Assembly: GCF_019753765.1 (NCBI RefSeq)
Contig: NZ_JAIJZW010000012.1
Span: 1-64,000 of the forward strand
Length of the DNA: 64,000 nt
Reading direction: 5' to 3'
DNA from: Microbacterium marinilacus
GTDB lineage: Bacteria > Actinomycetota > Actinomycetes > Actinomycetales > Microbacteriaceae
The translations under genes were made by a program, and so were the position numbers. The notes under the pieces were generated by a model. The model was not told the DNA's origin. It made no database searches and saw only the letters and a program-made list of their open reading frames with translations. The stretch's first letter is position 1. Each line of letters begins with the position of its first letter. Positions 1-18,658 of the stretch are shown in pieces.

Positions 1-87
1 AACCCGACCCGCCGGCACACCGCGCTCGGCAACCTCAGCCCCGTGGAGTTCGAACGACTTCACATCCCCGCCGCAACCGCGGCATGA
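1..87 (+). mobile_element. IS3-family transposase (OrfB), C-terminal fragment
   Basis: The window opens inside a reading frame whose last 28 residues contain RRHTALGNLSPVEFE, the typical C-terminal end of IS3-family DDE integrase-type transposases. The gene runs in from outside the window, so its completeness cannot be judged. The sequence after the TGA, up to about base 121 (ending near gaaaccgggtca), is probably the right end of the element with its terminal inverted repeat; the left end is not visible. It places a mobile element directly before the small-peptide locus and suggests that locus sits in accessory DNA. Confidence 0.8.
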
Positions 88-152
88 TCAACACAGAGAA
101 ACCGTCCGGGAAACCGGGTCACGCTCCGAACTCGTCGAAGGGAGGTGTGCTA

Positions 153-203
153 ATGCCCGCGAAGACGGACGTGAAGGCTGGTCCCTTCACCAAGACCAAC
201 TGA
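153..203 (+). CDS. 16-residue tandem peptide 1 (PFTKTN end)
   Basis: Tiny gene encoding MPAKTDVKAGPFTKTN. A strong Shine-Dalgarno (GGGAGGTG) lies 7 nt before the ATG. It is the first of six paralogues that share residues 1-12 and vary at 13-16. Every base difference among the six copies within codons 1-12 is at a third position and synonymous, which is strong evidence that the peptide is translated and selected. The set lies just upstream of a C39-peptidase ABC exporter, so I infer a secreted peptide precursor cut after Ala-Gly to release PFTKTN. It has no Cys. The function is unknown and I do not recognise the family. Confidence 0.8.
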   Translation: MPAKTDVKAGPFTKTN

Positions 204-281
204 TGCAGCAGGGGCGGGACCGGACGGTCTCCCCTCAGTCTCATGATGGTTCTCGAACACTCGTTGGAGGGAGGTGTGCTG

Positions 282-332
282 ATGCCCGCGAAGACTGATG
301 TGAAGGCTGGTCCTTTTGTCCGGACCAGCTAG
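282..332 (+). CDS. 16-residue tandem peptide 2 (PFVRTS end)
   Basis: Encodes MPAKTDVKAGPFVRTS, preceded by GGGAGGTG at normal spacing. This copy has the most divergent tail (Val13, Arg14, Thr15, Ser16) and is the only one ending in TAG. It lies 78 nt after the first copy. Residues 1-12 are the same as in the other copies although codons 5, 6, 11 and 12 differ silently from copy 1. The same inference applies: a leader of about ten residues ending Ala-Gly and a hexapeptide product. Confidence 0.8.
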   Translation: MPAKTDVKAGPFVRTS

Positions 333-409
333 AACTTGCGTGCGTCGTTCCAAAGAACGGCGCCGGGGGCGCGAGTAATACGGGCGCGCATTAACGAGGG
401 AGGTGTGTC

Positions 410-460
410 ATGCCCGCGAAGACCGATGTCAAGGCTGGTCCCTTCACCCGAGGAAACTGA
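410..460 (+). CDS. 16-residue tandem peptide 3 (PFTRGN end)
   Basis: Encodes MPAKTDVKAGPFTRGN, with a GGGAGGTG ribosome binding site before the ATG. It is the only copy with Gly15. Codon 7 is GTC instead of GTG, again silent. It lies 77 nt after copy 2, so copies 1-3 repeat with a period of about 129 nt while copies 4-6 repeat every 109 nt, indicating two rounds of duplication. Confidence 0.8.
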   Translation: MPAKTDVKAGPFTRGN

Positions 461-516
461 CCTGATGCGACGACATCTTTCGCTTACGACAGGCACTGTG
501 AAAGGAGGTGAGTGTG

Positions 517-567
517 ATGCCCGCGAAGACTGATGTGAAGGCTGGCCCCTTCACGCGGACCAACTGA
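517..567 (+). CDS. 16-residue tandem peptide 4 (PFTRTN end)
   Basis: Encodes MPAKTDVKAGPFTRTN after the ribosome binding site AAAGGAGGTGA, a near-complete match to the anti-Shine-Dalgarno sequence. Its tail looks like the consensus of the family. It starts a 109-bp unit that is repeated almost exactly as copy 5. Confidence 0.8.
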   Translation: MPAKTDVKAGPFTRTN

Positions 568-625
568 CCTTTTCGCGCCCGCGGGGTGCGATTGCTGTAG
601 TGGAGCGTGGACGGAGGTGAGTGCG

Positions 626-676
626 ATGCCCGCGAAGACTGATGTGAAGGCAGGCCCCTTCACGCAGACCAACTGA
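626..676 (+). CDS. 16-residue tandem peptide 5 (PFTQTN end)
   Basis: Encodes MPAKTDVKAGPFTQTN with ribosome binding site CGGAGGTGA. It differs from copy 4 by two bases: one silent (codon 9) and one changing Arg14 to Gln. The spacer after it differs from the spacer after copy 4 by a single base, so this copy is a recent tandem duplicate whose only protein change lies in the variable tail. Confidence 0.8.
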   Translation: MPAKTDVKAGPFTQTN

Positions 677-734
677 CCTTTTCGCGCCCGCGGGGTGCGA
701 TTGCTGTAGTGGCGCGTGGACGGAGGTGAGTGCG

Positions 735-785
735 ATGCCCGCGAAGACCGATGTGAAGGCCGGGCCCTTCCTCCGGACCAACTGA
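735..785 (+). CDS. 16-residue tandem peptide 6 (PFLRTN end)
   Basis: Encodes MPAKTDVKAGPFLRTN with ribosome binding site CGGAGGTGA. It is the last copy, with Leu13. After its stop the repeat pattern ends and a 125-nt non-coding stretch with a strong hairpin leads to the C39 exporter gene. Confidence 0.8.
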   Translation: MPAKTDVKAGPFLRTN

Positions 786-856
786 CTTATGCGAAGGCGC
801 CTGATGTGGAAGCTCGCGGTTTTGACTGAGCGGCCCAACGCACGCGTCAAGAGACA

Positions 857-898
857 GCCTCGCGGGTGGTCAGCGTCATCGCCGACCGCCCGCGAGGC
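857..898 (+). promoter_or_regulatory. Stable hairpin between peptide genes and exporter
   Basis: Left arm 857-871 (gcctcgcgggtggtc) pairs with right arm 884-898 (gaccgcccgcgaggc): 15 pairs with one G-U, loop of 12 nt, plus an extra A-T at 856/899. No T-run follows, so it is not a classical intrinsic terminator. It ends 12 nt before the exporter GTG and overlaps the zone where its ribosome binding site would be masked. It may lower exporter synthesis relative to the peptides or protect the upstream message. Confidence 0.65.
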
Positions 899-910
899 TA
901 CTGATAGGGA

Positions 911-3454
911 GTGGCGTTGACGAGGAAGAAGCGGAGCGCGCCTGAGGTGATCCAGACCTCGTGGCTGGACTGCGGTCCGGCGGCGCTTACGTCATTGTTG
1001 CGCGGGCACGGCTCGCCGGCGCCGTACGAGAAGCTACGCACGATGTGCAACACGGGCGTCGACGGCACCTCCATCGACAGCATCGAATCGGTAGCCGTCT
1101 CTGCGGGCCTGGACGCGGTGCAGATGGTCGTTCCCGCTGAGCAGATTCTCGCGGTTCCGGAGGCGTATCTTCCAGGAATCGTCGTGTCGCGGCTCCCGGA
1201 CGGGTTCGCGCACTTCGTGGTGGCCTGGAAAAGGGGCGCCAGGAGTATGGCGTTGATGGACCCGGCGACGGGTCGAAAGAAGCAGCCTCACTCCTCGTGG
1301 AAGTCGGAGCTCTATGTTCATGAGCTCGAGGTTCCGAGCCAAGCATGGCGGGAGTGGGCCCTCGGGCCAGAGTTCAGCGAGGGCCTGATCCGCCGGGCAG
1401 TCGCGGTGGGGACGTCCCGTGATCGTGCGGTCAGTCTGCTGGACCTGGCGGCTCAGGATCCAGGGCCTCGTGGCCTCGGCGCGTTCGACGCTGCGCTCCG
1501 TCTCGAGGAGCATCAGCGGCGTCTCTGGCGACGGAACGCCGTGTCGGTGTTCCGTCGGCTCCAGTCGCATGTCGTCAGTCGCGGGGCGCACCTCGACCCC
1601 GACCTGTGGTCGTGCGTCGTCCCCGAACAAGAGCAGCAACCGGAATCGGTCAGGCTTAGAGGAGCGGTTATCCTCAGCGCCACGTCTTGGGACCCGGACC
1701 GAGCGACACCGAATGCGCGGGCAGAATTGGAGGCCGTCGAACCCGACCCGTTGAAAACGGTGCGCGATGCAGTCGCGCGGGTCGCCTGGCTTCCGCCTGT
1801 GCTCGCGGTGACGGCTGTCGCGGCAGCGATCGCGCAGGCGCTGCAGGTCGTCCAATTCAGATCCTTGCTGAGCGCGGCGAGCGTCGAGGTCGGCTGGGTG
1901 CTCGCGACCATTCTCTGTCTCGTGACCGCACGAGGTCTTTCGACCGTGGCCGCCCAGAAGCTCGGACGGGAGCTCGACGATCACGTTCGTCGTTCCTGGT
2001 TGAGTGCGCCGCGCTCGTTGCCGACGTCGTTCATCCGGACACGTCCGGTCTCCGACATCGTGTTCCGCGCCCATGCCACACATCGGCTACGGGAGTTTCC
2101 ACTCGCTGCTGCACGGTTGCTGACCGCTGCCGGAACCGCAGCCGCGGCCACGATCACCGTTCTCGCCTTGGCGCCGCAAGCCGCGGGAGTTGTCGTGCTT
2201 CTTCTCGTCGTCGCCATCGGGATACCCTGGGCCTTCCTCCGCTCGATCATCGAGGCGGATGCGCGTGCCCACACGCTCAGCGGCTGTCTGGCGAGGCCGG
2301 TCTCCGATGTCCTGCTCGGTGCACAATCCATCCGCCAGAGGGGGCTCACCGCTGCGATCGTGGCCGAGCACGACGCCCTCGCGCTCAGCTGGGAACGCGC
2401 GCTCCGGCGCCTGGCCGCTCTCACCGCTATGTCGAAGCTTGCAAGCGGCGTCTCCGGGGCGGTCTTGCTCACATGGTGCCTGTCCATCGCCGTCCAGTAC
2501 GGGGCGGAGATCGCACTGGCCGTCGCGATACTCGGCGTGCTGATCGTGGATGCCGGTGCGAGCTTTGTGCAGACTCTGCAGACGATGCCCAATGTGCGTT
2601 CGACGCTTCTGCGTCAAAGTGGCCCGCTCAATGCGGCATCGGTCGGCAGAAAGCCTCTGGAGGCACTCGACGATTCCGCGGTGGCCGTAGCTCTGCGCAA
2701 AGCTTCTGTCGTCATCGGATCCGTCGGCGTCTTGAACGACGTCGATGTCGAGATACCGGGTCGCGCGCATGTTGCGGTGGTCGGACAGTCGGGCTCGGGC
2801 AAATCGACTCTTCTCTCGGTGGTGACGGGAGCGACCGAGCTGACCGGGGGCTCCGTCGCTCGTCATCGCTCAGCACTCGGTGGAACGGCCTGGGCCGGTC
2901 CGACAGCGTGGCTCTGGAACGGCAGCGTGCGGACCAACGTGGAGTTCGGTTCCTCGAAGCTCGCGCCGACTGTGGGTTCCCGCCTGTCGGCGGCCGGAGC
3001 GAAGGATCCCGTCGGGCTCGCGAACCGTCAGACCGGTGAAGGCGGTGCGCTGCTGTCGGACGGGGAAGCGCAGCGAGTCCGCTTGGCGCGGGCGCTCGGG
3101 CGTCCCCGCGCCGGTCTCGTCGTGCTTGACGAGGCCATGCGCGGCCTGCCTCGCGATCAGCGCACCACGGTCTTGCGAGCCGCTCGTGAGATCTGGTCCG
3201 ATTCGACGGTCCTTTGCGCGCTTCACGAGGTCGCCGACGCCACATCCTTCGATCTCGTCATGGTGATGGACCACGGGCGGGTGGTCGAGTTCGACTCGCC
3301 GGCTGCCCTTCTCGCGAAGGACGACAGTCGGTTCCGTTTCCTCCTCGAGGCGGCCGAGAAGCCGATGAGCGGTTGGAGCCGCGTCGATCTGATGCTGCGT
3401 CAGGAGAGTGCATTGTCCCCTTTGCGCGATGGCGTCAACCAGCCGCAGGCGTGA
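911..3454 (+). CDS. Peptidase-containing ABC exporter (C39 domain, TMD, NBD)
   Basis: An 847-residue bacteriocin/peptide exporter. Residues 1-135 form a C39 cysteine protease domain with all expected residues: Gln15, Cys21 in LDCGPAAL, His101 in HFVVAW and Asp117 in MDPATG. Residues about 290-570 hold the membrane segments. The ATPase domain has Walker A GQSGSGKST (625-633), signature LSDGE, Walker B with Asp740-Glu741, and H-loop His772. A stretch of about 150 residues between protease and membrane domain has no counterpart in usual C39 exporters, which are about 700 residues. The GTG start has TAGGGA upstream; a TTG two codons later is an alternative. Known role of the family: cut the leader while exporting the peptide. 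The inferred substrates are the six peptides upstream. Confidence 0.9.
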   Translation: MALTRKKRSAPEVIQTSWLDCGPAALTSLLRGHGSPAPYEKLRTMCNTGVDGTSIDSIESVAVSAGLDAVQMVVPAEQILAVPEAYLPGIVVSRLPDGFAHFVVAWKRGARSMALMDPATGRKKQPHSSWKSELYVHELEVPSQAWREWALGPEFSEGLIRRAVAVGTSRDRAVSLLDLAAQDPGPRGLGAFDAALRLEEHQRRLWRRNAVSVFRRLQSHVVSRGAHLDPDLWSCVVPEQEQQPESVRLRGAVILSATSWDPDRATPNARAELEAVEPDPLKTVRDAVARVAWLPPVLAVTAVAAAIAQALQVVQFRSLLSAASVEVGWVLATILCLVTARGLSTVAAQKLGRELDDHVRRSWLSAPRSLPTSFIRTRPVSDIVFRAHATHRLREFPLAAARLLTAAGTAAAATITVLALAPQAAGVVVLLLVVAIGIPWAFLRSIIEADARAHTLSGCLARPVSDVLLGAQSIRQRGLTAAIVAEHDALALSWERALRRLAALTAMSKLASGVSGAVLLTWCLSIAVQYGAEIALAVAILGVLIVDAGASFVQTLQTMPNVRSTLLRQSGPLNAASVGRKPLEALDDSAVAVALRKASVVIGSVGVLNDVDVEIPGRAHVAVVGQSGSGKSTLLSVVTGATELTGGSVARHRSALGGTAWAGPTAWLWNGSVRTNVEFGSSKLAPTVGSRLSAAGAKDPVGLANRQTGEGGALLSDGEAQRVRLARALGRPRAGLVVLDEAMRGLPRDQRTTVLRAAREIWSDSTVLCALHEVADATSFDLVMVMDHGRVVEFDSPAALLAKDDSRFRFLLEAAEKPMSGWSRVDLMLRQESALSPLRDGVNQPQA

Positions 3455-4995
3455 CCGTGCGCCCGTCGATGAGACCTTCGGGACTGCTTGTCGCCTCTAT
3501 AGGCCTGGAGGCGACCGCAGTCGTCGTCCTCGCCTCGGCTCTCGGCCAAGTCGGCACGGACCTGCTCGCGGAACGCGCGGTCGCATGGCCGGTCTTCGCG
3601 TTGCTCATGGCCTTGTTCGTCGTGCTGCGAGCGACGGCCGGCTTCGCCGCCGGAACCTACGGTGCGACCCTCGGGACCCTGTATCGGCGCCGTGCGCTGA
3701 CGGCGGCCGTGTCGGCGCCGCCTGATCATGTGCGATCGGTGGGACCGGGCGCGGCGTTGATGAAGGCGCTCGATGTCGAGTCCGTGGGCGACTTCTTTGC
3801 CCGTACAAGCACGGGCGTGATCCTCGGCGCGGTCGAATCGGTGGCGGCGTTCGTCGTCATCGCGGTCTTCCAGCTCCCTGCCACCATGGTGGTCTGCCTG
3901 GCGACGGCGATTGTGTGTCTGGTCGTCCTTGCCATGGCGTTGGCTCGCGCGCGAGCCCGGTGGCGGTTGTCCCGACTAGGCGTGACCACGGAGACGACCG
4001 AAGGAGTGCTCGGTTTGGAAACCGCGCAAGTCTTCGAACGAGCGCACGCGAGCACCGATCAGATCACGGCCCGCCTCAGAGAGTATGGGCAGCTTGCTCG
4101 TCGCATGGACCTGATCGCAGTGTGCATCACCGTACTTCCCGGTTTGACGCTGCTGGCCATGTTCCTCTCGGTGTTCATCGCGGCTGGCACATCGAGCGAA
4201 GCCTCGACCGCGATCGGCCTCGGAGCTGTCCTCCTCTCCGCATCAGGCCTCGAGCGCCTGGCGCAAGTGAGTAACGACGCCGTCTCCGCGATCGATGCCT
4301 CCCGAGGGGTGGCAGAGCTCAGACAGCTCGGTGGTGTGACGTCATCCGCTGACGCGCTGCCTTCCGGGGAGGGGCGACTCGGCACGCGCCGGCATCGCCC
4401 CGCTGATGCCGGCGGAGAAGGGGTCCTTCTCCGCGCGTCTGACATCACGGCCACCTATTCGCCCGGCGAAGGGTTGACCGACCCGGTGAGCCTCACCGTG
4501 CGTGACGGCGACCGGCTGATCATCGGCGCGCCGTCGGGCTTCGGAAAGACGACATTCGGCGAGGTGCTTTCTGGGGAGCGAGCCCCGACTTCGGGCGCCG
4601 TATGGCGCCGCGACGGCATCGTCGTCGCTCGAGTACCGCAAGCGGACGATGACCACATGTTCGCGAACAGCCTGCTGTTCAACGTCGCCGCTGGCGTGGA
4701 GTGGCCACCCGGGCCTTCTGTGCAGACGAGAGTCGGTGCTCTCCTGGATGAGCTCGGGCTCGACGAACTGCTGCGCGGAATGCCCGCGGGACTCGCGCAA
4801 CCCATCGGTGAAGGGGGATGGCGGCTGTCTACGGGCGAGCGCACACGGATATCGCTCGCCTCAGCGCTGTTGAGAGAGCCCGATCTTCTCATCCTCGACG
4901 AGTCGATCGCGACGCTCGACGGAGCCACCCGTCAACGCGTACTGGACGCATGCACTCGTCACAGCAGAGCCACGGTGCTTTTCGCGCACGTGTGA
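3451..4995 (+). CDS. ABC half-transporter (TMD-NBD) with truncated tail
   Basis: The start chosen is a GTG overlapping the stop of the C39 exporter (GTGA), giving 514 residues. The first half is an ABC exporter membrane domain. The second half is an ATPase domain with Walker A GAPSGFGKTT (from residue 359), signature LSTGE, Walker B with Asp483-Glu484 and H-loop His513. There is no peptidase domain. It ends two residues after the H-loop histidine, whereas the family normally continues 30 or more residues. Sequence after the stop, read in another frame, looks like the missing tail. It probably works with the upstream exporter as a heterodimer, in immunity, or in a second export step. Confidence 0.8.
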   Translation: MTVRPSMRPSGLLVASIGLEATAVVVLASALGQVGTDLLAERAVAWPVFALLMALFVVLRATAGFAAGTYGATLGTLYRRRALTAAVSAPPDHVRSVGPGAALMKALDVESVGDFFARTSTGVILGAVESVAAFVVIAVFQLPATMVVCLATAIVCLVVLAMALARARARWRLSRLGVTTETTEGVLGLETAQVFERAHASTDQITARLREYGQLARRMDLIAVCITVLPGLTLLAMFLSVFIAAGTSSEASTAIGLGAVLLSASGLERLAQVSNDAVSAIDASRGVAELRQLGGVTSSADALPSGEGRLGTRRHRPADAGGEGVLLRASDITATYSPGEGLTDPVSLTVRDGDRLIIGAPSGFGKTTFGEVLSGERAPTSGAVWRRDGIVVARVPQADDDHMFANSLLFNVAAGVEWPPGPSVQTRVGALLDELGLDELLRGMPAGLAQPIGEGGWRLSTGERTRISLASALLREPDLLILDESIATLDGATRQRVLDACTRHSRATVLFAHV

Positions 4996-5179
4996 GCGGA
5001 AGACCGCGCTACGGTTCTGGAGAATCGAGAGCCTCGCGCGGCGCGTGTATCAGACAGATGGTGCGACGCTCCATCAGGTCATGGCGACAGCACGAGGCGT
5101 CGAAGCCGCGCGGCGGCGCGCGTCAACGAAGCCGAGCGTCGCCGCGCCCTCACCCCGTCGCGCGCCCCCGGCGCCGTGA
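4996..5179 (+). pseudogene. Probable out-of-frame C-terminal tail of the ABC half-transporter
   Basis: Downstream of the TGA at 4993-4995, frame 1 reads AEDRATVL. The frame shifted by one nucleotide then reads RIESLARRVYQTDGATLHQ and onward until a TGA at 5177-5179. Both pieces resemble the region that normally follows the H-loop in ABC ATPases. This suggests a stop mutation plus a frameshift, or a sequence error, rather than a new gene. It is an inference from reading the frames by eye. Confidence 0.4.
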
Positions 5180-5195
5180 GGGACGGGCGGCGCGC

Positions 5196-6047
5196 GTGAC
5201 CACGACCGGCGACCCGGCCGGCTCGGCGGGCGCGGCCGTAGGCGGTCGGCTCGCGCGGGCGGCGATGTTCGCCGCCGCACTGCTCGCGGTCCACGTGTGC
5301 TTCGCCTCGACCCGCGCCGGTCGCGAGATCGACGACGCCAGCATCGACGCGTTCTCGTGGGCGCGCGACCAGGGCGCGCTCCCGCTGTTCCAGCTGAGAG
5401 AGGCGGTACCGCTTGCGCTGCTGCTCGCCGTGGTCGCGGCGGCGGTCGTCGCGCTGACGCGGCGCCGGGTGAGGCAGGTGCTCGCCGCGGCGGCGCTCCT
5501 GGGCGGCGTGTACGTGCTGAGCGCCGTGCTGAAGCGGATGCTCGTGCTCGCAGGCGCCGGCATCGGCGGGGAAGGCATCGGCGGCGAGCCGGCAGGCTCC
5601 TTCCCGAGCGGGCACACCGCGCTGGCGCTCGCCGCGGTCGTCGCGCTCACCTGGCTGCTGCCGCGGCGCGCGCTCCGCCTCGTGACGCTCGGCGGGGCAG
5701 CCCTGTCCGTGTTCACCGCGATCGCGTCGGTGGCGGCCTTCGCCCACCGCGGCAGCGACGTCGTCGGCGGCGCGCTGCTGGTGGGCGCCGTCGCCGCGCT
5801 GCTGTGCTCCCACGAGCCCGCCGCCACGGCCGGTCACCGGGATCTCGGACCGGGAGTGCTCGCACTCGTCTCGGCGGGCATGTCCGCGGCGATGCTGCTG
5901 GTCGCGATGTCGCGCGCGGGATCGGACATCGCAGGGCCGCTCGTGCTCGGCCTGACGCTCGCGACGACGGGCGCCGTCGGCGCCGTGTTGTGGGAAGCCG
6001 TGCCCCGGCAGAATCCGTCGTCGACCCGACGTATCACGGTCGGCTGA
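5196..6047 (+). CDS. PAP2-superfamily membrane phosphatase
   Basis: A 283-residue protein with about six hydrophobic segments. The PAP2 (phosphatidic acid phosphatase type 2) signature is visible as PSGHTALALA in the middle and HRGSD (His-x3-Asp) further on. The first motif is reduced to a Lys in LKRMLVL, and the Arg of the SR-x5-H motif is replaced (SVAAFAH), so substrate or activity may differ. The GTG at 5196 is preceded by GAGGGA; an ATG at 5265 is an alternative. It stands at the edge of the polysaccharide locus, where such enzymes recycle undecaprenyl-type lipid carriers or release glycans. Confidence 0.75.
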   Translation: MTTTGDPAGSAGAAVGGRLARAAMFAAALLAVHVCFASTRAGREIDDASIDAFSWARDQGALPLFQLREAVPLALLLAVVAAAVVALTRRRVRQVLAAAALLGGVYVLSAVLKRMLVLAGAGIGGEGIGGEPAGSFPSGHTALALAAVVALTWLLPRRALRLVTLGGAALSVFTAIASVAAFAHRGSDVVGGALLVGAVAALLCSHEPAATAGHRDLGPGVLALVSAGMSAAMLLVAMSRAGSDIAGPLVLGLTLATTGAVGAVLWEAVPRQNPSSTRRITVG

Positions 6048-6102
6048 CGCTGCTCCTCACGACCGGGACTGCACGGAGGCAGGCCCGGGAAAAGAGGCGG
6101 TC

Positions 6103-7419
6103 ATGGGCGGACGGGTGCTGCGGCACAGCGCTGAACGGCACAGCGCTGAACGGCACAGTGCTGAACGGTACGGCGTCGAGAGGCACAGCGCCGATCGGCG
6201 GGTCGCGCGGGGCGAGCCGGTGGTGGCGCTCGCACACGACTACCTCACCCAGCGCGGCGGCGCCGAGCGCGTGGCGCTGTCCATGGGGCGGGCCTTTCCC
6301 GGGGCGCCGCTCTACACGACCCTGTACGAGCCCTCGCAGACCTTTCCGGAGTTCGGGGCGCTCGACGTGCGACCCAGCAGCCTGAACCGCCTGTCGCCGC
6401 TGCGGCGCTCGCACCGCCTCGCGCTGCCGCTGCTCGCGCACGACGTCGACGCCATCCGGGTCGACGCCGACGTGCTGCTCGTCAGCTCCAGCGGCTGGGC
6501 CCACGGCATGCGGAGCTCTGGGCGGAAGGTCGTGTACTGCCACGCGCCCGCCCGCTGGCTCTATCAGACCCAGCGCTACGCGAGCGGGGGCTCGATGCGC
6601 GGCGCCGCGACGCGCGCCGCCGTCGCCACCCTCGGATACGGACTGCGGCGCTGGGATCGGGAGGCGGCCCGGTCGGCCGATCGCTATCTCGTGAACTCCA
6701 CCGTCATCCAGCGTGCGGTGCGGGACGTCTACGGCATCGAGGCCGAGGTCGTCCCCCCGCCTGCCGCGTGCCGTCCCGCCGGCGAGGAGGACCCGGATCC
6801 GACGATCGAGCCGGGGTTCCTGCTCGTGGTCGCGCGCCTGCTGCCGTACAAGAACGTGGACGCCGTGGTGCGCGCGGCCGGGCTGCTGGGCGACGTCGAC
6901 GTGGTCGTGGTGGGGGCGGGCCCCGACCGGGACCGGCTGCAGTCGATGGCGGGACCGCGCGTGCGCTTCGCGGGCACGGTGACGGATGCGCGCCTCCGCT
7001 GGCTCTACCGTCACGCGTCCGCCCTCGTCGCCGCGTCCTACGAGGACTACGGCCTGGCGCCGCTGGAGGCCGGGGCGTTCGGGCGTCCGGCGATCGCGCT
7101 GCGCGACGGCGGATTCCTCGACACGGTGCGCGAGGGCGTCAGCGGCGTGTTCTTCGACACCCCGGAGGCGGAGCCGATCGCCCGCGCGATCGAACGTGCT
7201 CGCGCGACGGCGTGGGACGCCGCCACGATCGCGGCGCACGCCGACTCGTTCAGCGAGGAGAGCTTTATCGACAGGCTGCGCACGGTCGTGGCGGACGTCG
7301 CCGGCCGCACGCCTCTGTCGGCGCCCGCCGCGCCCCTCGCGGCCCCCGTGCCCACGCCTTCGCCAGTGCCCGCGCCCGTCGCGACGGGCGACACGGCCGA
7401 GATCCCCGTTGCCGCGTAA
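6103..7419 (+). CDS. GT4-family glycosyltransferase
   Basis: 438 residues, GT-B fold. The N-terminal domain starts with VALAHDYLTQRGGAER, typical of glycosyltransferases of exopolysaccharide loci. The C-terminal donor-binding domain has the EX7E motif in SYEDYGLAPLEAG. The ATG at 6103 has AAAGAGG upstream, but it makes an N-terminus of about 39 residues containing pentapeptide repeats; GTG 6220 would give a more standard protein. The last 40 residues are Ala/Pro-rich and probably disordered. It is followed 10 nt later by a GT2 gene, and the two together mirror the fused GT4-GT2 protein at 30463-32406. Sugar specificity cannot be read. Confidence 0.85.
   Translation: MGGRVLRHSAERHSAERHSAERYGVERHSADRRVARGEPVVALAHDYLTQRGGAERVALSMGRAFPGAPLYTTLYEPSQTFPEFGALDVRPSSLNRLSPLRRSHRLALPLLAHDVDAIRVDADVLLVSSSGWAHGMRSSGRKVVYCHAPARWLYQTQRYASGGSMRGAATRAAVATLGYGLRRWDREAARSADRYLVNSTVIQRAVRDVYGIEAEVVPPPAACRPAGEEDPDPTIEPGFLLVVARLLPYKNVDAVVRAAGLLGDVDVVVVGAGPDRDRLQSMAGPRVRFAGTVTDARLRWLYRHASALVAASYEDYGLAPLEAGAFGRPAIALRDGGFLDTVREGVSGVFFDTPEAEPIARAIERARATAWDAATIAAHADSFSEESFIDRLRTVVADVAGRTPLSAPAAPLAAPVPTPSPVPAPVATGDTAEIPVAA
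6121..6195 (+). repeat. Five 15-bp imperfect direct repeats
   Basis: The unit cggcacagcgctgaa occurs exactly at 6121-6135 and 6136-6150, with one change at 6151-6165, and in degenerate form at 6166-6180 and 6181-6195. In the glycosyltransferase frame it reads as HSAER-like pentapeptides. Because family members normally begin near VVALAHDYLTQRGG, the repeats may be untranslated leader sequence if translation starts at GTG 6220. Confidence 0.8.
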
Positions 7420-7429
7420 GGAGACCGGA

Positions 7430-8320
7430 GTGCGCGCGCTGCCCGAGATCGTCGTCGTGGCCTACGGCGCGCCCGCCCTCCTGCGGGAGACGCTCGCGCC
7501 GCTCGCGGGCTTCGCGGTGACGGTGGTCGACAACTCCTCCTCGCCCGAGGTCGCCGCCGTCGCCCGCGAGGTCGGGGCGGCGTACTGGGATCCGGGGGCG
7601 AACCTCGGCTTCGGCGCCGGTGTGAACCACGCGCTCGCCCGGCGCCGGACGCCCGGGGCCGACGTGCTGCTGCTCAACCCCGACGCCGTCGTCGACCCCG
7701 ACGCGATCCGGGCGCTCCAGGCGGCGATGCACGCCGAGGCCCGCATCGCGACGGTCGGGCCGGCGCAGTTCGACGCGGACGGACAGCGCGCGCAGGTGAG
7801 CTGGCCGTACCCGCACCCCCTCGAGTACGTCGCGCGCATGGTGCGGCTCGAGCGGTTCCTGCGCGAGCGTCCGCGGTACGTCATCGGATCGGTCCTGCTG
7901 ATGAACGCCGAGGCGCTCGCGAGCGTCGGCGGCTTCGACGAGGGCTTCTTCCTCTACGCGGAGGAGGCCGACTGGCAGTACCGCGCGCACCAGGCCGGAT
8001 GGCGCAACGTGGTGCGCCACGACGTGACGGCCACCCACGTCGGGGCGGGCACGAGCACCGACCCGGTGCGCCGAGAGGTCTTCCTGCAGGCCGGACAGGA
8101 ACGGTTCCTGCGCAAGCACTACGGCGTGTGGGGCTGGCGGGCCGCGCGATGGGCGGTGGTCGTGGGAAGCCTGCCCCGACGGGTGCTGCTGCGGGGAGCG
8201 CGTCGGGGCGCCGCCCGCGATCGGGGCCTGCTGTTCCGACGCGGGCCGGTGGCGGTCGAGGCGACGTACCGGCCTCGTGTTCCGCGCGCCGCCGGCGCCG
8301 CCGACGGCGGTCGAGCGTGA
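7430..8320 (+). CDS. GT2-family glycosyltransferase (rhamnosyltransferase-like)
   Basis: 296 residues. GT-A fold with the opening VVVAYGAPALLRETL, nucleotide-binding VVDNSSS, LLLNPDA in the DXD position, and the acceptor-side motif GGFDEGFFLYAEEADW typical of dTDP-rhamnosyltransferase-like GT2 enzymes. The GTG start is set by AAGGAG six nt upstream. The C-terminus is Arg-rich. Closely similar in sequence to the second half of the fusion protein at 30463-32406. The stop overlaps the next start (GTGA). Confidence 0.85.
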   Translation: MRALPEIVVVAYGAPALLRETLAPLAGFAVTVVDNSSSPEVAAVAREVGAAYWDPGANLGFGAGVNHALARRRTPGADVLLLNPDAVVDPDAIRALQAAMHAEARIATVGPAQFDADGQRAQVSWPYPHPLEYVARMVRLERFLRERPRYVIGSVLLMNAEALASVGGFDEGFFLYAEEADWQYRAHQAGWRNVVRHDVTATHVGAGTSTDPVRREVFLQAGQERFLRKHYGVWGWRAARWAVVVGSLPRRVLLRGARRGAARDRGLLFRRGPVAVEATYRPRVPRAAGAADGGRA

Positions 8321-9276
8321 GCGCGCCGCGGGTGAGCGTGGTCGTCGCCACCAACCGCACGAGCCCCCACCTGGCGGAGGCGCTCGAGTCAGCGTGCAGG
8401 CAGACCCTGGTGCCGGTCGAGATCATCGTCGTCGACGACGGATCGCCCGACGCCGCCGCGGTCGCCGAGGTGGCCGCCTCCGCCGGCGCACGGATCGTGC
8501 GGCTCCCGCCTTCCGGCGTCAGCGTCGCGCGCAACGTCGGGGTCACGCAGGCGTCGGGGGAGTACGTGGCATTCCTCGACGACGACGATCGCTGGGCGCC
8601 CGAGCGGCTGCGCCTGCAGGCCGCGGCGCTCGCGAGCGACCCTGGGGCCGTGGCGAGCTACTGCGGGATGCGGACCGTCGACGAGGCGGGCGTCCAGGAA
8701 CTCGCGCCCGCGGACCAGGTCGCCGTGGCCTCGCGACTCGACGTCGCCCGCCGGCTCACGGGGATCATCCTGCCCAACCTCCTGATCCGCCGCACGGCGC
8801 TCGACGCGGTCGGCGGCTTCCACTCGCGCCTGCGCCTCGCGGAGGACCTCGACCTGGTGCTGAGGCTGGCCGAGCGCGGGACGTTCCGGTTCGTGCCCGA
8901 GCAGCTCGTCGACTACCGGGCGACGAGCACCAACACCACGCGCCGGCACAGAGAGCTCGCCCGCGGCATCGAGGAGGTGCTGCGCCTGCACCAGGCGGCC
9001 GCCTCCGCGGCGGGCGACGTCGACCTGGTCGCCGCGCTCGGCGAGAGCCTGCGTGCGAACGCCCGTTTCGCGTGGTGGGCCGCGGGGCGCCGAGCCCGCG
9101 CGCTGGTGCGGGACGGGCGACCCGCGCGGGCGGCCGGCGAGCTGTGGTGGGCGCTCGGCCATGCGCCCGGGGGCCTGGTCGACGGGCTCTCGCGCCGGCT
9201 GGGGAGCGCCGGGAAGGCTCCGGAGAGGAAGCTCGAGCCGATCGGCCCGGCTCATGCGGGAGCGGTGTCGCCGTGA
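8317..9276 (+). CDS. GT2-family glycosyltransferase
   Basis: 319 residues, beginning VSVVVATNRTSPHLAEAL. Motifs: IIVVDDGSPD (nucleotide), FLDDDDRWAPE (metal-binding Asp cluster) and LRLAEDLDLVLRLAERG (catalytic ED region). The GTG overlaps the stop of the upstream gene and the stop overlaps the next start, so four genes from 7430 to 11026 are translationally coupled. Adds one sugar to a glycan, with donor and acceptor unknown. No membrane segments are evident. Confidence 0.85.
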   Translation: MSAPRVSVVVATNRTSPHLAEALESACRQTLVPVEIIVVDDGSPDAAAVAEVAASAGARIVRLPPSGVSVARNVGVTQASGEYVAFLDDDDRWAPERLRLQAAALASDPGAVASYCGMRTVDEAGVQELAPADQVAVASRLDVARRLTGIILPNLLIRRTALDAVGGFHSRLRLAEDLDLVLRLAERGTFRFVPEQLVDYRATSTNTTRRHRELARGIEEVLRLHQAAASAAGDVDLVAALGESLRANARFAWWAAGRRARALVRDGRPARAAGELWWALGHAPGGLVDGLSRRLGSAGKAPERKLEPIGPAHAGAVSP

Positions 9277-15642: not shown

Positions 15643-16739
15643 GGTCGCCTCTCTGCGTCGGCGGGAAGGGGTGGCGGGAGGACGTCGGGAAGGACGGCGG
15701 GGGCGGGCGAGGGCGGCGCCTCGTCCGTGCTCGTGCGGCGCGCCCGCCGGCGCGCGGCGAGGACGCCCAGCAGCTCCCACTCGATGAGGAAGAAGCACAC
15801 GAGGCGGTACATCGTGAAGTCGAGCCCCATGAGCATGCCGATCGTGGTGTGCATCAGGATCGCCGCGATCAGGAAGACGCTGCGGAGCCTCGGCACGAGC
15901 AGCAGGAAGCCGGCCAGCTCGAGCGCGACGGTCGCGATCGACAGAACGGCCAGCGCGGCCGGCGTGTGCGCGAGCCACTCGGCGACGCCGGCCAGGACGG
16001 CGGACGGATAGCGCCCGTAGGCGGCGTTGGCATAGGTGTACATCTCGAGGCCCAGGTCGTCGCGCCACGTCGGCGCACCGCCGCCGATCACGTACACCGT
16101 CGAGCCCGAGGTCAGCCCGCGCAGGTAGAACCCCAGCGTCTCGCCGTTCAGCCATGACATCCCGCCGAATCGGATCTTCGAGAGGCCGGACGTGGTGTAC
16201 GTCACGGCGAGGAGCAGCAGGATGACCGTGACGCCCCACTGCCGGTGCGGCGTCGCGCGCCACGCGCGCAGACCGCCGAGACCGCCTCGCCACCGTCGGA
16301 TGGCGCCGTCCACCGAGACCGCATCGGTCCCCGGGCAGAACACGAGCACGATCAGCACCTGCGCCGCGAGGGACGCCTCGTGGTCGAAGACCCCCTGCCC
16401 GGCCTCGACGGCGAACGCCAGCGTGCCCAAGGCCGCGACGACGAGCAGCGCGGGGCGCGTGAAGAGCCCGATGACGCTCAGGACCATCGCGAGCGCCAGG
16501 ACGACGGCGACGGCGGGGTGGCCGAGCAGCAGGTCCTGTGCGCCGGAAGGCAGGAGGCTCAGCAGCCAGCCCTCGTGCAGAGGCTCCGGGGCGACGTCCT
16601 GCCAGCTCCGGATGGTTCGGTGCGCCCGCTCGCCGAACGGCAGCACCAGGGCGATGCGCAGCCAGCTGAGCCGGCCCTGCCACAGCAGCGGCAGCGCCCG
16701 CCGCGCCGCAGGGGCAAGCGCGAGGAGAAGCCGCTTCAC
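15639..16739 (-). CDS. HTTM-domain membrane protein (vitamin K-dependent carboxylase-like)
   Basis: 366 residues with about eight hydrophobic segments. The pattern of LRIALVLPFGERAHRT near the N-terminus, a GLFTRP turn, TYTTSGLSKI, and a late LHTTIGMLMGLDFTMY-like segment (here MHTTIGMLMGLDFTMY) matches the horizontally transferred transmembrane (HTTM) domain that is related to gamma-glutamyl carboxylase. The biochemical role of bacterial HTTM proteins is poorly known. GTG start overlaps the stop of the small upstream gene. The C-terminal 40 residues are Pro-rich. Confidence 0.75.
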   Translation of the reverse strand: MKRLLLALAPAARRALPLLWQGRLSWLRIALVLPFGERAHRTIRSWQDVAPEPLHEGWLLSLLPSGAQDLLLGHPAVAVVLALAMVLSVIGLFTRPALLVVAALGTLAFAVEAGQGVFDHEASLAAQVLIVLVFCPGTDAVSVDGAIRRWRGGLGGLRAWRATPHRQWGVTVILLLLAVTYTTSGLSKIRFGGMSWLNGETLGFYLRGLTSGSTVYVIGGGAPTWRDDLGLEMYTYANAAYGRYPSAVLAGVAEWLAHTPAALAVLSIATVALELAGFLLLVPRLRSVFLIAAILMHTTIGMLMGLDFTMYRLVCFFLIEWELLGVLAARRRARRTSTDEAPPSPAPAVLPDVLPPPLPADAERRP

Positions 16740-17302
16740 GAGGCGGCGCCGTAGCTGTGCGTGTACTGCCGGGTCGCCGTGTCGTAGCGCCCGACGAGGG
16801 CCGTGCCGAGCGGCGCGCCCGTGCCGTCGACAGCGTCGACGTAGACGTCCACGCGGTCGTACGCCTCACCGCCCGCACGGAGGCGGTCGGCGAGGGCGCC
16901 GATGAACCCGGACATCCGCTCCGCGAGCCGGTCGGGAGCCGCGTCGGCCGGGTCGAGCTGTCGGAACGGGGCCGTCTCGTCGAGGGGCGCGTAGACGAAC
17001 GAGGCGAAGTAGCGCATCAGCTCGACCTCGCTGTGCCCCGTGCGCTCGATCGGCAGCGGCTCGGATCTCTCCCGTGCTGATCCGTCCCGCCCGGTGCCCT
17101 CGCCGCGCACGCCCTCGAACCGGAACGCGTAGAGCCGCGTGTCGGCGTCGACATAATGGGCGAACATCGGCGCGACCGTGAAGGGGAAGTCCTCGACTCC
17201 GCGAGCGATGACCCAGACGTTCGGCACGAGCACGACGGCCGCCACCACGACCGGCAGCACGCGATCGCGCAGCAGCGACGCGAGGGGCGGCGTGCGCGTC
17301 AT
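16736..17302 (-). CDS. Small membrane-anchored protein upstream of HTTM gene
   Basis: 188 residues. One N-terminal membrane segment (about residues 12-32, VLPVVVAAVVLVPNVWV), then an outside domain I do not recognise that contains PFTVAPMFAHYVDADTRLYAF. The Pro-Met-Phe-Ala-His stretch is like one seen in proteins encoded beside HTTM genes. The ATG is preceded by GGAGG. It starts the coupled five-gene operon, so it is probably an accessory subunit or partner of the HTTM protein. Confidence 0.65.
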   Translation of the reverse strand: MTRTPPLASLLRDRVLPVVVAAVVLVPNVWVIARGVEDFPFTVAPMFAHYVDADTRLYAFRFEGVRGEGTGRDGSARERSEPLPIERTGHSEVELMRYFASFVYAPLDETAPFRQLDPADAAPDRLAERMSGFIGALADRLRAGGEAYDRVDVYVDAVDGTGAPLGTALVGRYDTATRQYTHSYGAAS

Positions 17303-17428
17303 CGTGACCTCCGGCTCTGGCGGGCACGGAAAGACCCGCGCCGAGAAGAGGGAGCGTGGTGCCCCTGCCGTGATACCCGTCCGGCGATACCCGTGCGGGC
17401 GGGCGGCGGTGCGTTCAGCGACGCGGCG

Positions 17429-18658
17429 CTATGACGACCACACCCTCCAGACGGCGTCGGCCGTGTGCTCGATGGCGAACCGCGCGGCCATGGCGCGCGC
17501 GGCCTCCGCGCGTGCGGCGCGTGCGGGGGCGTCGTCGAGCGCGAGTCGGACGGCGTCGGCGAGAGCGTCGGCGTCGCCGGGGCGCACCAGCACGCCGTAC
17601 GCCGTGGCGCGGACGGCCGGAGCCGGCGACGGCTCGCCCGACGCCTCGGGATCCAGGATCTCGGGCACGCCGCCGGCGACCGTGGCCACGACGGGCACGC
17701 CCGCGGCCGCCGCCTCGGCGACCACCTGGCCGAACGGCTCGGGCACCGGCGAGGCGTGGACGAGCAGGGTCAGCTCGCGCAGGTGCCGCCCCGGGTCGGC
17801 GGCCCAGCCGGTGAACTCCACCCGGTCGCCGATCCCGAGCCGCTCCGCCAGGACGTGCAGTCCGGCCTCGTAGTCGTCCTCGCCGAACACCGCGGCGCCC
17901 ACGACCCGGAAGCGCGTCGCAGGATGGGTGCGGCGGACGGCCGCCGCCGCCTCGAGGAACTCCCGCTGCCCCTTGGTGGGGCTGATGCGGCCGATGATGC
18001 CGACCACGGGTGGGCCGTCGGGCTTGGGTGCGGGCGCGAAGGCCTCCGGCGCGAGCCCCGGGTAGGCGACGGAGGCACGGCGACGGGCACGGGCGGGGAG
18101 CGTCCGAAGCGTGGCGCGGGAGTTGACGACGACAGCGCGGGGCCCGACCGCCGCCAGGGCCTGCAGGGCGACGACCACCGGCGCAGGCAGGTAGTCGCGG
18201 GCCAGGCGGTCGTGCAGGTGCCACACCCATCGTCGTCCCGCGAGGGGCGCGGCGAGGGCCGTGATCACCGCCGCCTTCAGCGAGTTCGCCACGACGACCT
18301 CCGCGTCCGCGCGGCGGAGGGCCCGCGCCACCCGCGGCACGAAGGCCGCCGTGCGCGCCAGCGATCGTGCCAGTGCGAGGGGGGAGAGCAGCCGCTCTCG
18401 GGCGGTCTCGTTCACCGCCGGGTCGAGCGGGAGCACCGCGGTCGGGACGCCGGCGGTGCGCAGGCGGTCCGCGAAGGGGCCCGCGCTGAACAGCAGGGCC
18501 CGCACGTCGGCCCTCGTCCCGTGCAGTCGCTCCACGACGCGGAGCAGAGCCAGCTCCGCCCCCGACTCCCGACCGGTGTGGTCGATCACCACCACCCGGG
18601 GGAGACGCTCGGACGCGGGCGCCTCGTCCGAGCGCTCCGCCGCAGCGCGCACCAACAC
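17429..18658 (-). CDS. GT4-family glycosyltransferase
   Basis: 409 residues. GT-B fold: N-terminal VVVIDHTGRESGAELALLRV, C-terminal GRISPTKGQREFLEAA (donor-binding) and PEPFGQVVAEAAAAG (EX7E). GTG start with GGAGGA upstream. An insertion of about 15 residues (SGEPSPAPAVRATAYG) lies near the C-terminus. It is transcribed towards the HTTM operon with a 126-bp gap, in which I see only a repeated gatacccgt and no gene, and divergently from the gene at 18773. Confidence 0.85.
   Translation of the reverse strand: MLVRAAAERSDEAPASERLPRVVVIDHTGRESGAELALLRVVERLHGTRADVRALLFSAGPFADRLRTAGVPTAVLPLDPAVNETARERLLSPLALARSLARTAAFVPRVARALRRADAEVVVANSLKAAVITALAAPLAGRRWVWHLHDRLARDYLPAPVVVALQALAAVGPRAVVVNSRATLRTLPARARRRASVAYPGLAPEAFAPAPKPDGPPVVGIIGRISPTKGQREFLEAAAAVRRTHPATRFRVVGAAVFGEDDYEAGLHVLAERLGIGDRVEFTGWAADPGRHLRELTLLVHASPVPEPFGQVVAEAAAAGVPVVATVAGGVPEILDPEASGEPSPAPAVRATAYGVLVRPGDADALADAVRLALDDAPARAARAEAARAMAARFAIEHTADAVWRVWSS

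Follow-up and report, generated by a model that had tools for sequence, protein, structure and literature searches.

Six tandem 16-codon genes lie at the start of the 64-kb window (the whole stretch of DNA analyzed here), each encoding MPAKTDVKAGPF plus four variable residues, and to judge from sequence likeness the tails of these peptides are very probably units of the hinge repeat of a neighboring protease, an S8 subtilase. We propose that the genes would be precursors of exported PFxxTN hexapeptides. MPAKTDVKAG would serve as the leader for export and cleavage, recognized by the C39 exporter pair beside the array, and the variable tail would represent one unit of the hinge hexapeptide type of the upstream subtilase. 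The hinge repeats would most likely be a docking or cleavage site for control of the subtilase by a TPR-CHAT protein (CHAT being a caspase-like family); after uptake, the peptides would compete for the hinge site and thereby act on the subtilase-CHAT modules of kin or neighbors, either switching or blocking them. That exported hexapeptides mimic subtilase-CHAT hinges and act on them after uptake seems possible to us, if somewhat short of probable.

The preliminary description of this DNA had reported the six genes, a ribosome binding site for each of them, and a C39 ABC exporter and a second ABC half-transporter after the array. All six were found within 153-785 (Table 1), GGAGG stands 6-8 nt before the ATG in six of six, and the gene order and domains of the transporters agree with that account. 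The genes are confirmed as real, constrained coding ORFs with variable tails. When the six copies were compared, codons 1-12 showed 7 variable sites with at least 10 changes, and because every one of these is a synonymous third-position change the genes look coding; under a simple random-change model one change in these codons is synonymous with P = 0.26, and ten are with P of about 1.5e-6. The 10 variable sites in codons 13-16, on the other hand, change the protein (T/V/L, R/K/Q, T/G and N/S). The resulting tails are PFTKTN, PFVRTS, PFTRGN, PFTRTN, PFTQTN and PFLRTN, and Cys is absent from them. Genes 4-6 lie within a 109-bp tandem duplication (504-786). A DNA search of the genome with window positions 500-600 found no array copies beyond these six, and a peptide profile search recovered the same six genes.

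Table 1. Positions of the features in the window.
Feature	Position	Strand	Evidence
IS3-family right end: transposase gene 3' end, right inverted repeat	1..127	+	Identity at other contig ends; inverted repeat matched by left-end contigs
GAA, target duplication common to the end of contig C3	128..130		Bases on both sides
Peptide gene 1, MPAKTDVKAGPFTKTN	153..203	+	ORF, stop included
Peptide gene 2, MPAKTDVKAGPFVRTS	282..332	+	ORF, stop included
Peptide gene 3, MPAKTDVKAGPFTRGN	410..460	+	ORF, stop included
Peptide gene 4, MPAKTDVKAGPFTRTN	517..567	+	ORF, stop included
Peptide gene 5, MPAKTDVKAGPFTQTN	626..676	+	ORF, stop included
Peptide gene 6, MPAKTDVKAGPFLRTN	735..785	+	ORF, stop included
C39-peptidase ABC exporter, 847 aa, GTG start	911..3454	+	PF03412 at residues 13-128, PF00005
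Second ABC half-transporter without C39 domain	3457..4995 (start about 3457)	+	PF00005; Piscinibacter homologue also 3' of exporter

Contig C4 starts with the window, whose first base falls within an IS3 element reaching to position 127, and the upstream context was for this reason hidden from the preliminary description. Bases 1-127 are identical at three other contig ends and similar to annotated IS3 transposases. Comparison of both ends of 32 contigs revealed four with the left end of this element. One IS3 in four copies breaks the assembly, at the ends of C4, C28, C9 and C10 and of C3, C7, C13 and C15. The copy on C3 has an early stop codon in its first gene that is missing from the other three left ends.

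From sequence comparison we place the end of C3 directly upstream of the window, parted from it by the IS3 insertion. The end of C3 and the window start carry a 3-bp GAA duplication on both sides, a match that is weak alone because there are four candidate ends. The C3 flank also matches the spacer of peptide genes 1-2 at 16 of 24 bases (shuffle P = 0.0017), as against 10-12 for the other three candidates. Finally, rho and prfA lie on C3 while prmC-like, sua5-like and atp genes are found further along the window, all of these genes being named by eye; rho-prfA-prmC-sua5-atp is the usual actinobacterial gene order. Between the exporter and prmC, window positions 5000-33000 hold what appears by eye to be a polysaccharide-type cluster (PAP2, glycosyltransferases, polysaccharide deacetylase). 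A promoter-like site at 59-88 on the + strand, within the IS3 end, is directed at the array (1 found, 0.1 expected). The IS3 insertion may have altered array expression.

The end of C3 encodes a sigma factor (Sigma70_r2, E = 5e-9), a 155-residue protein that gave no Pfam match, the S8 subtilase (E = 3.8e-23) and the TPR-CHAT protein (CHAT, E = 3e-21). The last has only a weak TPR match, which at 21.6 bits stays below the cut-off of 30.1 (PF13424, E = 2.5e-4), and the CHAT protein had no sequence match among solved CHAT structures. A review lists carboxypeptidase, subtilase and CHAT proteins in the genomic context of ECF54 (PMC8999054, in the text available to us), and sigma factor, subtilase and CHAT genes likewise occur together here. 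Compared with the ECF54 operons as that text presents them, the present locus differs in that hinge-like peptide genes and an exporter follow, and in the small protein without a Pfam match. We saw no signal peptide by eye on the subtilase or the CHAT protein, and exported peptides would therefore need to be imported to reach them.

Homologues of the four operon genes were clustered in 20 of the 20 relatives read, with the first two genes swapped in one (L145). CHAT motifs were counted in 19 of 21 proteins (our own and 20 others), which had been picked by the same motifs; L158 and L161 failed. A Nonomuraea match fell in a record without annotation, and the motif did not find the protein there. 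In L150 (genome G034), about 4.4 kb at 4467-8838 separate the subtilase from the CHAT gene and carry transporter-like frames on the other strand, as judged by eye. Neither this insertion nor the one adjoining the operon in L144 contained anything peptide-like. At E up to 1e-30, 110 of 198 genus genomes, ours among them, have the subtilase; across the order, at E up to 1e-20, it is present in 20 of 149 genomes, four of these belonging to the same genus. The operon lies at different locations in the relatives, since the genes 3' of the exporter are not adjacent to it in the 20 read, where they gave weak glycosyltransferase matches only, and the stretches read there contained neither rho nor prfA nor the gene that follows them.

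The likeness between the peptides and the operon lies in the subtilase. Before its protease domain this protein reads VGVNPFTTTNPFIPTNPFIPTNPFIPTNPYG, a hinge of the form NPFTTTN-PFIPTN-PFIPTN-PFIPTN-P with one PFTTTN and three PFIPTN units. Tandem hexapeptides occupied the hinge at all 30 of the best loci of the genus search (our own included), mostly as NPFTRTN or NPFSRTN repeated three times. Of 110 genomes with a subtilase match, 82 were loaded and 80 were read in at least one of two passes, which left out 13 and 11 of the 82 (G278 and G157 were absent from both). Over the 80 subtilases read, again including our own, the units were PFTRTN in 26, PFSRTN in 15, PFTKTN in 3 and PFTQTN in 1; PYGSTN, PYTKSN, PFGKTN and PHGRTN, among others, also occur in the genus, and some hinges have five- or seven-residue units (PFKGN, PFGGGTN). 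In other genera of the order, where 14 of 17 loci were read, the units included PFIATN, PFIETN, PLIETN, PYWDPV and YGDGVG, and at some loci no unit was clear. The hexapeptides (L113-L162, L205-L261) of one protein mostly resemble each other, whereas those of different species differ. As a general rule, that CHAT would cut each repeat just behind its basic residue was considered and rejected: PYGSTN and the PFIPTN of our own hinge speak against it.

Three of the tails, PFTRTN, PFTKTN and PFTQTN, are exact hinge units in 30 of the 79 other genomes read. PFVRTS, PFTRGN and PFLRTN were found in none of the subtilases read for them, and our own hinge matches none of the six tails exactly, its closest unit, PFTTTN, being one residue away from three of them. 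In six frames the pattern PFxx[TG][NS] occurs 7 times in the 64-kb window, 6 of these being the peptides, and 4 times in the 20-kb end of C3, in each case in the hinge. What the preliminary description said of a short leader and tail beside a C39 exporter is supported; it missed the likeness to the subtilase hinge, which lies outside the window.

At whom the peptides would be directed is a matter on which two forms of the proposal differ, and we consider them about equally likely. In one, the peptides would be decoys, copies of foreign hinges that wrongly trigger or else block the modules of other species, while the PFIPTN hinge of the producer escapes. The distribution of the three exact tails, present in 30 of 79 other genomes and absent from the producer's hinge, is in keeping with this. 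The best subtilase match, G038, has PFTRTN three times, and among 57 DPVGLNP-type hinges (our own included), a grouping chosen after inspection of the data, our own is the single one with none of R, K, H and Q as the fourth residue of the repeat. However, the array occurs in one genome, its other three tails match nobody, and non-basic hinges are found outside the clade (PYGSTN, PFIATN, PFIETN). We regard decoys aimed at rivals as unlikely. The same holds for the broader picture of an arms race over protease barcodes, in which a fast-changing hinge repeat would key the module of each species and the producer would secrete single units copying the keys of other species, tripping or jamming their protease cascades, with its own hinge having moved away; we consider it doubtful to the same degree.

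In the other form, by analogy with Phr peptides, which act on Rap proteins, the peptides would be a pheromone that builds up outside the cell, is taken back in by an oligopeptide permease and then targets the producer's own TPR-CHAT protein or subtilase. The short precursors with variable tails, the adjacent exporter and the neighbor with a weak TPR match are what such a self-signal would look like, and the producer's hinge keeps the PFxxTN frame, with PFTTTN close to three tails. However, no tail equals a unit of that hinge, and six different tails would be unusual for one pheromone. Self-signaling is not a likely reading either.

Base composition bears on the first of these forms. The protease half of the subtilase, the CHAT start, the array and both transporter genes are GC-poorer than their surroundings. 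The first 600 nt of the CHAT gene have a GC3 of 0.625, compared with a mean of 0.857 (sd 0.085) in 18 of 20 relatives and with 0.908 in the remainder of the same gene. The array has a GC content of 0.617 against 0.732 for the window, and the transporter genes have GC3 values of 0.77 and 0.76. A low CHAT start was seen as well in the relative G116 (GC3 0.565). The odd composition of the protease half and CHAT start is what the decoy reading would expect of a recombining specificity region; the composition agrees with such a region and is no proof of it. A low-GC tract covering the protease half of the subtilase and the CHAT start (L111, about 16000-17740, and L144) resembles a local replacement.

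We turn to the exporter. It has an N-terminal C39 domain (PF03412, E = 2e-16, residues 13-128) and a C-terminal ABC domain (PF00005, E = 1.6e-13). PF00664 (ABC transmembrane) was not reported for it. The TIGR03796 alignment spans residues 340-804, and at 83 bits against a cut-off of 853 the protein falls outside the NHLP/NHLM exporters. The second transporter gene, which ends at 4995, gave PF00005 with E = 9.3e-15 and PF00664 with E = 5.8e-5, below the cut-off. The closest solved C39 domain to that of the exporter is 6mpz, from an AMS/PCAT transporter (E = 6e-6).

Among 72,556 plasmid records, the sole whole-length homologue of the exporter was found on a plasmid of Piscinibacter gummiphilus (NZ_CP136338.1). 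Both transporter proteins are encoded there in the same order, with 29% (exporter) and 32% (second protein) identity, and Q15, C21, H101 and D117 of the exporter, which we take to be the C39 active-site residues, are identical in the homologue. In total 477 plasmid records matched the exporter, mostly in the ABC part; for the C39 part, among the matches listed (40 of 70 records), the Piscinibacter record had E = 1e-31 and the next records about 1e-5.

The Piscinibacter pair also carried the evidence on the leader. A precursor near it shares the leader motif, LKAKVNVKLGPI against MPAKTDVKAGPF, with 6 of 12 residues identical, and the expectation that a short leader would precede a PFxxTN tail beside a C39 exporter is borne out to the extent that the motif recurs there. 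The alignment score of 32 was the best among 863 open frames in a 33-kb stretch (the next was 29), and the shuffle P values were 0.0004 and 0.00005. We read the shared motif, AKx[DN]VKxGP, as the likely recognition and cleavage region of the exporter. According to the accessible text of PMC10885120, PCAT leaders end in GG, GA or GS and have hydrophobic residues at -4, -7 and -12. No canonical double-glycine-type site is found in the present leader, which ends in AG before P, and with V at -4, K at -7 and too few residues to reach -12 it departs from the hydrophobic-residue rule as well. We infer that cleavage would take place after Ala-Gly with export of the tails, and we consider their export probable.

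These data argue against the idea that the 16-mers are internal regulators, that is, intracellular substrates or inhibitors of the subtilase or the CHAT protein which the exporter clears, whole or as fragments. The peptide ends do resemble the protease hinge and the operon is next door; the exporter, together with a leader motif common to a RiPP precursor of another phylum, points instead to export of the tails, and we consider internal regulation quite unlikely.

The Piscinibacter cluster (NZ_CP136338.1, 127510-141910) encodes an MNIO enzyme, a carbamoyltransferase-YcaO fusion, a TfuA protein, the product of a moeB-annotated gene and the C39 exporter pair, and a MoaD/ThiS gene sits across the start of the record. 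The annotated precursor of 57 residues ends KAKVNVKLGPIPFIAGLSNKARQKPW and contains SNK, as in the std core. As far as the available text of the preprint goes, the cluster resembles the std RiPP cluster (PMC13174530), and it is this relative that has the homologous exporter pair and the shared leader motif. In contrast, the SNK core is absent from all six peptides of the array, and the std cluster itself, in the same text, has an MFS permease and not a C39 exporter. Our genome had 0 matches to YcaO (PF02624) and MNIO (PF05114), searches that were positive in 5 (YcaO) and 2 (MNIO) of 14 controls, and no modifying enzymes were seen by eye across the IS in 20 kb of C3.

One could speculate from this likeness of leader and exporter that the array encodes an ordinary small bacteriocin or RiPP and that its resemblance to the hinge is due to chance or incidental; the lack of any tail identical to the producer's own hinge fits such a view. 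However, PFxx[TG][NS] is rare, turning up by chance once across all six frames of the 64-kb window, and yet it is found in six tails and at four hinge sites, and three tails recur exactly in the hinges of relatives. The genome has no YcaO or MNIO match and the tails are without Cys, which also tells against an ordinary RiPP, and we consider this explanation highly improbable.

The preliminary description had looked to similar short genes beside homologous exporters in relatives, an expectation that failed: among 365 other genomes of the genus there was no convincing peptide gene, and the genome sets searched for the exporter, described below, yielded no exporter outside our own genome. In a DNA search of 366 genus genomes, ours among them, 16 matched at E up to 0.01; the matches in the other 15 are 26-47 bases long. 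With the peptide profile, 61 of the 366 matched at E up to 1, the best foreign match having E = 6e-4. The weak foreign matches at 8 and 10 loci, read by eye (L177 gave no line), look like other or antisense frames and were rejected. A short frame with the ending GPFTRTNSM-stop is present in both G042 and G107 and is probably antisense. No hinge-like short gene was found beside the operon in the 13.5-kb loci of 20 relatives (L160 and L162 left out).

The exporter was similarly restricted. Whole-genome searches found it in 1 of 98, 1 of 299 and 1 of 396, each time in our own alone, at thresholds of 1e-40, 1e-20 and 1e-20, in overlapping sets with at most 9, 10 and 7 candidates scored per genome. 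In the subtilase-bearing genomes of the genus a profile search found 0 of 70 at 1e-15; our own genome is outside that set, and the same profile does recover it in the sets of 299 and 396. A scan of genome contigs gave 7 loci, which matched in the ABC-domain part only, and is insensitive because it was built on six 8-residue patterns; a scan of viral contigs confirmed none. Two phage matches were weak. A second genome with such peptides or such an exporter was thus not found in the genus and whole-genome searches, and because the array is in one genome only, conservation of the peptide-exporter pairing cannot be shown.

The locus shares features with several known systems. PCAT/AMS exporters, in the available text of PMC10885120, likewise have an N-terminal C39 domain, an ABC domain and several adjoining precursors with one leader and variable ends; unlike those described there, our leader is about 10 residues long, ends in Ala-Gly rather than GG, GA or GS, and has a predicted product of six residues. 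The Rap-Phr and other RRNPP systems also place a short secreted peptide (predicted in our case) beside a protein that here is possibly a TPR protein. In contrast to those systems, our locus has a C39 exporter, the TPR is fused to CHAT and the peptide resembles a repeat of a third protein. In Craspase, to go by the descriptions available to us, a TPR-CHAT protease (Csx29) acts on a partner protein, a role that we predict here too; no CRISPR component was seen in our case and the partner would be the subtilase. In the open-access literature nothing nearer was found than the remark on ECF54.

Exported peptides that copy an internal repeat of a neighboring protease are not known to us from any other system, and it is for this reason that we call the peptide system categorically new. 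If the peptides are a plain pheromone, the system would be a variant rather than a new kind.

AKx[DN]VKxGP would define an exporter-substrate pair common to this locus and a betaproteobacterial RiPP cluster. We did not find a role described in the open-access literature for operons that combine subtilase and CHAT genes with ECF-type sigma factors, and a secreted peptide resembling the hinge would give a direct handle on their function. Should they work between cells, the peptides would form a new class of signals or weapons, hexapeptides that are apparently unmodified, and the genome of the recipient would reveal their target.
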